Positions 45,682 to 47,598 of a stretch of 64,000 bases of DNA are shown here, piece after piece. Source of the stretch: an uncultured Poribacteria bacterium (GTDB lineage: Bacteria; Poribacteria; WGA-4E; WGA-3G). The notes under the pieces were generated by a model. It ran no database searches and was not told the origin of the DNA. It saw only the letters and a program-made list of their open reading frames with translations. Location: assembly GCA_951812525.1 (NCBI GenBank), contig OX638316.1, positions 744,001 to 808,000 on the forward strand. Direction: 5' to 3'. Within the stretch, counting starts at the first letter, position 1, and every line of letters starts with the position of its first letter. Both the position numbers and the translations under genes were made by a program.

Positions 45682-46479
45682 ATGTCTATGTTTAAAAGTG
45701 TGCGAATAACGCTAGCGAGTTTTATGGTAGTTTTTCTACTGATAGCACTGCCCAGTCTTGCCGAGATTGACCCGAAGAATATTATGGGAATGTGGCTCTT
45801 CGACGAGGGGAAAGGTGGTGTCGCCACCGATTTGTCAGAACACGGAAACGATGGTGAAATTCACGGTGCAAAGTGGGTAGACGGAAAATTTGGCAAGGCA
45901 CTCGAATTTGATGGCGTTGACAATTGGGTTGAGGTGTCGCATTCAAAGACCGTAGGGTTTGAAGCGGGTGTCTCATTCACAATCACCCTCCATTTCAAAG
46001 GCACAAAAGTCGGTGGAGCACTTGTCGGAAAGAACTACGAGGACACATCGCAGGCACTCCCATGGTACCTACTCTGGGACGATGGTGCTGCTAACAAGGT
46101 AACACTCTATCTACGTGATAGTGCGTCAACCAGTTTCCGAGCAGACGGTACAACCGCTATCGGCGATGACAAATGGCATTTCATCGTCGCCAGAGCCGAT
46201 GCCGATGCAGGTAAGTCTTCAATATGGATAGACGGTGAGATGGAAGCCGAAGCAGACTTCAATAAAAAAGATGGCTACGGCACCAGTGAAGGTGTGTTTC
46301 ACATCGGACGGCACTATGAACGGTTTACTGCCGGCATCATTGACGATGTCGCCCTTTTCAATGTCGCCTTAGAAGAAGAAGACATGGAAAACATTATGAA
46401 CAATGGCGTTGAAACCGCTGCCGCAGTGGATCCTGTGAGCAAATTGGCGACAACATGGGGCAGAATTAAACGCCAATAG
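45682..46479 (+). CDS. Secreted LamG-domain protein with C-terminal TWG tag
   Basis: A 265-residue exported protein. The signal peptide (ITLASFMVVFLLIALPSLAE) is followed by one LamG/concanavalin-A-like domain (MGMWLFDEGKGGVATDLSEH to IDDVALFNVALEEED, read in part), probably a carbohydrate- or protein-binding lectin fold. The C-terminus VDPVSKLATTWGRIKRQ is the shared tag. AAGGAGGA precedes the ATG at 45682. The Sec-peroxiredoxin gene begins 12 bases after its stop, so they form one operon. Confidence 0.85.
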   Translation: MSMFKSVRITLASFMVVFLLIALPSLAEIDPKNIMGMWLFDEGKGGVATDLSEHGNDGEIHGAKWVDGKFGKALEFDGVDNWVEVSHSKTVGFEAGVSFTITLHFKGTKVGGALVGKNYEDTSQALPWYLLWDDGAANKVTLYLRDSASTSFRADGTTAIGDDKWHFIVARADADAGKSSIWIDGEMEAEADFNKKDGYGTSEGVFHIGRHYERFTAGIIDDVALFNVALEEEDMENIMNNGVETAAAVDPVSKLATTWGRIKRQ

Positions 46480-46491
46480 AGGTAACAAATC

Positions 46492-47598
46492 ATGAAACAG
46501 ATACACGCATGCCTCGCTTTAGCACTTCTGTTATTCGCGGGACTGAATTGCAGAAGAGAAAATCCTGTTGAGGAAACGGTAGAACTTCCAGCAACCGAGA
46601 CACCGACAGGTACACTGAGTGGAGAGATACAACCCATCGAAGGAGCACTGATTCAGGTCCGCTTACTGAGAGATGGGCAACTCCTGGCACAGATTGAGAC
46701 AGAGGCAACTTACGAACTTGAGGCACTCGAAGCTGGGAATTATACCCTACAGATATCCGCAAAAGGACATCAAGAAATAGAAGTTAACGCCACTGTCGTA
46801 GCGGGGCAAACTGTTACACTGGATAAGGTAACGCTTGCGGCGTTGGACACCCCCGTGTCGCATCTACAAGGAATTCTAACCGATGTGGCAACTGGCGCGC
46901 CGATTCCGGAAGTCCATCTCCAACTTACTGATGCAGCAGGTAAAGCTTACGAAACACTAACAACAGAAACAGGCGTTTTCACCTTTGAAAACCTCCCTAT
47001 AGAGCAAGCCTTTACTTTGAAAATTGAACACGCAGACTACGAAAATACCGAAGTGGCGGTGCAGCCGATACCTGCCTCCGAGACCTTTGAACTCAATCTC
47101 AAACTCATTCCCCAGCCAGCAGTAGAGGAGTTGGATCCGGGTCAAGGTCTGAGCCTTGGAAGCCAAGCTCCTGATTTCAAATTATCCGATGGAACCGGTA
47201 AAGCACATACACTTGCCGATTATATTGGGAACAAAAAAGTGGTACTCGTCTTCTTCCGGGGTGTCTGGTGACCGTTCTGCAGAGGTCAACTCGTTGAGTT
47301 GCAAAAGAACTATGCAGCGATTCAAGCCGCTGGCGCAGAACTCATCGCAATCAGTTCTGATGGCGAAGCCGCAACCAAGCAGAACGTTCAAAACCAAGGA
47401 CTTAAATTCGTTGTGTTGGCGGACCCTGACGTGAAGACTATTTCCGATTATAACGTTGTTAATCCGGCAAATAAGAGAATCGCACGTCCCGCATCCTATG
47501 TCCTCCAGAAGGATGGAACAATCGCTTGGAAATCCCTTGACGGCGTGGCTGTGCGGATTCCGACAGCACAAATCCTCAAGGAATTGAGCAAACTCTAA
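46492..47598 (+). CDS. Selenocysteine peroxiredoxin-like lipoprotein (in-frame TGA = Sec260)
   Basis: A 368-residue protein if the TGA at 47269-47271 is selenocysteine; the frame is open on both sides. The N-terminus is a lipoprotein signal with lipobox FAGLNC (Cys20). Residues about 38-105 and 118-195 are two Ig-like carboxypeptidase-regulatory/PEGA-type domains. Residues about 210-368 are an AhpC/TSA-type peroxiredoxin: SQAPDFKLSD, VLVFFRGVWUPFCRGQL, LIAISSDGEA and RPASYVLQKDG. Sec260 replaces the peroxidatic Cys of the WCPFC motif, with Cys263 as partner. It would reduce peroxides or thiols in the cell envelope. Standard callers would split it into two genes. Confidence 0.9.
47287..47301 (+). 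promoter_or_regulatory. Candidate bacterial SECIS hairpin of the peroxiredoxin gene
   Basis: A perfect 6-bp stem, CAACTC (47287-47292) and GAGTTG (47296-47301), closes the loop GTT. It begins 15 bases after the TGA, within the distance seen for SelB-dependent decoding, and the loop carries GU. Confidence 0.65.

Follow-up and report, generated by a model that had tools for sequence, protein, structure and literature searches.

We report a gene in an uncultured bacterium of the sponge-associated Candidatus Poribacteria that very probably encodes an exported, probably lipid-anchored peroxiredoxin-like (Prx-like) UxxC selenoprotein, the in-frame UGA of which would be read as selenocysteine (Sec) by means of a hairpin at 47287–47301. 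The window, that is, the whole stretch of DNA analysed, is 64,000 nt long and comes from a 5.06-Mb single-contig genome (GCA_951812525.1, OX638316.1, 744,001–808,000). Positions below are those of the window unless the genome is named, and the features are as follows.

46492–47598, + strand: predicted selenoprotein gene, 368 residues with Sec at residue 260; its TAA stop overlaps the next start codon
46492–46551, + strand: signal peptide with candidate lipidated Cys20 (AGLN-C here; GLGC, GFGC or AFGC in many relatives)
46609–46842, + strand: first beta-sandwich domain (PEGA/carboxypeptidase-regulatory-like), approximately residues 40–117
46858–47112, + strand: second beta-sandwich domain (CarboxypepD_reg, PF13620), approximately residues 123–207
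47146–47595, + strand: AhpC/TSA (peroxiredoxin-like, thioredoxin-fold) domain, residues 219–368
47269–47271, + strand: in-frame UGA, predicted Sec260, first residue of the UxxC motif
47278–47280, + strand: Cys263, invariant partner of Sec260, at the peroxidatic position of canonical peroxiredoxins
47287–47301, + strand: predicted bacterial SECIS hairpin, with a 6-bp CAACTC/GAGTTG stem, a GTT loop and 21 nt from UGA to loop
47598–48752, + strand: DUF362 protein with a Tat-type signal (NRRQFLNRLAVG); its start codon overlaps the selenoprotein stop (TAATG)

Conservation of the in-frame TGA and of the downstream hairpin

Translation of the frame 46492–47598 (+) confirmed the original prediction that TGA 47269–47271 is its sole interruption, and reads ...VVLVFFRGVWUPFCRGQLVEL... 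around that codon. A homology search found homologs in 77 of the 84 genomes of the phylum. Among the matches listed, each one spanning the Sec site has exactly one stop, a TGA, and those without the TGA cover the N-terminal part only. Nine full-length relatives (60–88% identical) share this TGA codon and contain no further stop; stops elsewhere in the frame, named with the original prediction as the mark of a decaying gene, were thus not found in them. Purifying selection acts on the coding sequence both upstream and downstream of the TGA (for the nearest relative, dN 0.012 versus dS 0.389 after it). By this pattern of substitution, in which dN is well below dS in both parts, the frame is a real gene. 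A search of plasmid records returned one distant match only and gave no clue to function.

The hairpin CAACTC-GTT-GAGTTG, with a GNN loop, begins 15 bases past the TGA, as had been described from the single sequence, and its stem is kept among homologs. All six stem pairs form, at a fixed distance from the TGA, in 73 of 75 distinct homologs. Across these 75 sequences 99.6% of pair cells pair, compared with 16–45% when the partner is slid by 1–4 bases. In a resampling null that kept the peptides and drew synonymous codons from the genes' own usage, 64% of cells paired, and complete stems numbered 2.2 on average and 8 at most, versus the 73 observed. Compensatory double changes give CAATTC/GAATTG in L074, CAGCTG/CAGCTG in L084 and CAGTTG/CAACTG in L085, and a CAGCTC/GAGCTG stem occurs in many of the more distant genomes. 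The full stems and the compensatory changes support the earlier proposal that a hairpin 3′ of the UGA serves Sec decoding. We conclude from this covariation that the hairpin at 47287–47301 is a bacterial SECIS (bSECIS) element.

The limits published in a review (PMC13188914) are a loop of 3–9 nt, a stem of 4–16 bp, a G in the first two loop positions, 16–37 nt between UGA and loop, and a minimum free energy no higher than −7.5 kcal/mol. The hairpin lies within the loop, stem and spacing limits (3 nt, 6 bp and 21 nt), and every loop counted has a G as its first or second base. Its energy depends on the window chosen, being −4.3 kcal/mol for the 15-nt stem alone and −9.8 kcal/mol with a lower helix, so that the energy limit is reached only if the lower helix is counted. 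Folding of the mRNA after the TGA had been proposed as a check. The free fold of the 55 nt after the TGA did not stand out (z −0.19) and preferred other pairs, so single-sequence folding would not have revealed the hairpin; it was the comparative pairing that supported it. An Rfam scan of the 64-kb window gave no match, which says little because bacterial SECIS elements are short and variable.

Profile searches, also suggested with the original prediction, found the genes on which Sec decoding depends. The genome contains a tRNA-Sec (78 bits), also found by ARAGORN with anticodon TCA, and SelA (541 bits) and SelD (365 bits), both above their cut-offs. Beside the tRNA-Sec gene is a SelB-type open reading frame covering positions 188–580 of the TIGR00475 profile, the C-terminal two thirds, with 118 bits versus a cut-off of 242; the match is fragmentary and under the cut-off because the sequence examined ends inside the selB gene. 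The genome therefore does not lack Sec machinery. The SelD of this genome (L110, genome positions 3914052–3914975) is a selenoprotein too (KCAGUASK): its gene contains an in-frame TGA, and a hairpin lies after that codon. A paper that names both Poribacteria and selenocysteine (PMC5649159) notes that most bins of sponge symbionts carry SelA together with SelB.

Three other readings of the TGA were weighed against Sec decoding. Taken alone, one sequence shows no more than a single in-frame stop, as might be expected of a pseudogene or of a sequencing or assembly error. However, dozens of separately assembled genomes share this TGA and have no other stop, the SECIS element is conserved, and dN is much below dS after the TGA; because the shared codon is the only stop and dN lies far below dS on both sides, decay and sequencing error are refuted by the comparative data, and we give them a negligible probability. 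Reading of TGA as tryptophan, or as another residue, throughout the organism would likewise leave the frame open past the codon, but 29 of 73 homolog genes use TGA as their real stop, which rules out general reassignment. In addition, Cys homologs carry Cys at the Sec site and tRNA-Sec, SelA and SelD are present, so that reassignment has practically no chance of being correct. Bacterial Sec insertion competes with termination, and both beta-sandwich domains already lie within residues 1–259. The TGA could accordingly act as a regulated stop that yields mainly a 259-residue two-domain lipoprotein, with readthrough only when selenium is available. We consider this improbable, since the truncated form would hold just the start of the redox domain, and full translation is favoured by the strong conservation after the TGA and by the overlap of the stop codon with the start of the next gene. 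We conclude on this comparative evidence that decoding of the TGA as Sec is genuine and that the selenoprotein gene and its RNA signal are conserved in most of the phylum. Because standard gene callers end the gene at codon 259, the redox enzyme has likely been missed in annotated Poribacteria genomes; read correctly, the gene shows that most of the phylum has an exported redox protein in which Sec is fixed.

The distant genome G010 has two homologs (L115 and L126) with Cys at the exact Sec position (GYWCPVC and GLFCPYC), neither of which folds the hairpin. No true SelA match was found in G010, where the best hit scored 41 bits versus approximately 480–530 in most other genomes of the same search, an absence that is suggestive only because this genome is 61% complete. 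The Cys forms may have arisen by conversion of Sec to Cys once Sec decoding had been lost, or the change may have run in the opposite direction, and the gene family offers a natural comparison of Sec with Cys.

Position of Sec and architecture of the protein

The original prediction had placed Sec exactly at the peroxidatic Cys, and our alignments contradict this. FFRGVWUPFC pairs with FFPAAFSPVC of PrxQ/BCP (2cx3), so that Sec260 occupies the Thr/Ser position of PxxxT/SxxC and the peroxidatic Cys is matched by Cys263. The Sec of the genome's own true Sec peroxiredoxin (FYPKDFTGGU, a PxxxTxxU motif) also aligns with Cys263 and not with Sec260, and in alignment to ResA, Sec260 falls opposite the first Cys of CxxC. 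Positions 260 and 263 are invariant across the homolog alignment. The PxxxTxxC/U motif is not found in the selenoprotein, in which RGVWUPFC has R for P, U for T and C263 at the peroxidatic site. Alignment with Cys homologs, which had been proposed earlier, thus bore out the exchange of Sec and Cys at one site, in G010, but not the peroxidatic position of Sec260. Judged by these alignments, Sec260 replaces the Thr of PxxxTxxC (here RGxWUxxC), and the protein is a ‘Prx-like UxxC’ selenoprotein rather than a canonical Sec peroxiredoxin; it combines the UxxC motif with a PF00578 match (E 1.7e-31). Since the canonical PxxxTxxC is absent, peroxidase activity cannot be assumed.

An AlphaFold2 model built with 26 homologs (mean pLDDT 87) predicts that residues 40–117 and 123–207 are beta-rich and that residues 219–368 adopt a thioredoxin-type fold, with a domain arrangement that is not reliable because the pTM is 0.56. 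CarboxypepD_reg (PF13620) and AhpC-TSA were matched in all 26 homologs. In the PDB, the predicted redox domain is matched best by AhpE, a 1-Cys peroxiredoxin (Z 24.3, with an rmsd of 1.9 over 154 residues and 25% identity), which identifies a peroxiredoxin fold. Relatives whose sequences reach the N terminus have a hydrophobic leader with a conserved Cys at its end, and we infer that the signal peptide directs export. At −1 of the lipobox, this species and its close relatives have Asn, and many relatives have Gly. LspA and a DsbD-type membrane protein (DsbD_TM) are encoded in the genome, so lipidation and electron supply across the membrane are possible; with Asn at −1, lipidation in this species is likely without being certain. 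The earlier description of a lipidated, periplasmic protein with two Ig-like domains therefore stands for the signal peptide, the conserved Cys and the two Ig-like/transthyretin-like domains, and is weakened to a likelihood for the lipid anchor.

The overlap between the selenoprotein stop and the DUF362 start, usually TAATG or TGATG, is kept in most genus-level relatives. Of the 73 homolog loci examined, 49 have a DUF362-type leader (RRxFL) downstream, mostly with overlapping start and stop codons, and several family-level relatives have a tandem second UxxC gene downstream. The DUF362 gene is probably translationally coupled to the selenoprotein gene and may encode a partner of its product. 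The two form a conserved gene pair with a testable function. The upstream gene (45682–46476) encodes a secreted LamG (concanavalin-like) domain protein.

Candidate mechanism and other putative Sec genes of the genome

In the mechanism that we propose, tRNA-Sec and SelB would decode UGA 47269–47271, recruited by the hairpin at 47287–47301, to which SelB would be expected to bind. The signal peptide and the two beta-sandwich domains would carry the redox domain outside the cytoplasm, where Sec260 and Cys263 would act as a UxxC pair within a thioredoxin fold of the peroxiredoxin type. Attack by the Sec260 selenolate on a peroxide, or else on a protein disulfide, could give a selenenic acid that Cys263 would resolve to a selenenylsulfide, and an envelope thiol–disulfide relay, for which the genome has its DsbD-type membrane protein, could reduce the selenenylsulfide and so complete the presumed Sec260/Cys263 redox cycle.

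Peroxide reduction is slightly favoured over thiol–disulfide exchange: the fold favours a peroxidase, whereas the motif resembles that of a thiol–disulfide oxidoreductase. There is a considerable, if smaller, chance that Sec decoding is right and that the enzyme is a ResA/TlpA-like thiol–disulfide oxidoreductase or disulfide reductase and not a peroxidase. The UxxC aligns with the CxxC of ResA, ResA is the best NCBIfam match (sub-threshold), and the group has been named ‘Prx-like thiol:disulfide oxidoreductase’ in the literature; yet AhpE and other peroxiredoxins are the closest in fold, and AhpC/TSA is top-scoring in Pfam. More speculatively, the selenoprotein could be a phylum-wide envelope-anchored Sec enzyme of new architecture that, with a Tat-exported DUF362 partner, belongs to a Sec-rich extracytoplasmic antioxidant system and may protect symbionts from peroxides of the sponge host. 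We regard this broader proposal as rather unlikely.

In-frame TGA codons occur in six of the 13 AhpC/TSA domains of the genome. One gene (L098:1372–2394, genome positions 844627–845649) encodes two tandem AhpC/TSA domains, each with an in-frame TGA at the true peroxidatic position (YPKDFTGGU and YPRDFGRGU). It has relatives at E ≤ 1e-60 in 62 of 81 genomes of the phylum, nearly all with two TGA codons. As a conserved tandem peroxiredoxin with two Sec residues, its product may be of no less interest than the UxxC selenoprotein. Three further AhpC/TSA-type genes of the genome (L102, L103 and L107) have an in-frame TGA. One product bears a leader and a UGNC motif, another has UxxS, and the third has WGSWUGC together with a TPR and an N-terminal domain resembling copper amine oxidase.

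Relation to known systems

Among established families, AhpE of M. tuberculosis, a 1-Cys peroxiredoxin, is the closest solved fold to the redox domain. AhpE is a single domain without a signal peptide or beta-sandwich domains and has Cys instead of Sec. Canonical Sec peroxiredoxins (PxxxTxxU; PrxU, NF040737) share the fold and have Sec in the active-site loop, but the Sec of the selenoprotein is three residues closer to the N terminus, at the Thr position, and the NF040737 score is 27.7 bits versus a cut-off of 270. The membrane-anchored ResA/TlpA thiol–disulfide oxidoreductases are also extracytoplasmic, with a thioredoxin fold and a CxxC opposite the UxxC; they differ in using Cys only and in their N-terminal region, and the match is sub-threshold (58.7 of 170 bits). 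SelL-related redox proteins (NF040769) are distant Prx-like relatives from a Sec family (53.6 bits versus a cut-off of 120).

The nearest group is that of the Prx-like UxxC, or ‘Prx-like thiol:disulfide oxidoreductase’, selenoproteins of PF00578, described from the Sargasso Sea (PMC1088965), as ‘Prx-like 1’ in the GOS data (PMC2398784) and in a review (PMC13188914). According to the accessible text of these papers, its members, like the selenoprotein, have UxxC in place of TxxC/TxxU and a bSECIS just past the UGA; the selenoprotein adds a signal peptide, a probable lipid anchor and two beta-sandwich domains, and that text describes neither such an architecture nor a Poribacteria member. The open literature searched contained no account of this exported, probably lipidated architecture with its two sandwich domains, or of its fixation throughout the phylum Poribacteria, although they may have been reported elsewhere. 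Compared within Poribacteria and against that literature, the catalytic family is thus known, and what is new is the exported, probably lipidated N terminus with two beta-sandwich domains, the phylum-wide fixation and the overlapping Tat-type DUF362 gene.
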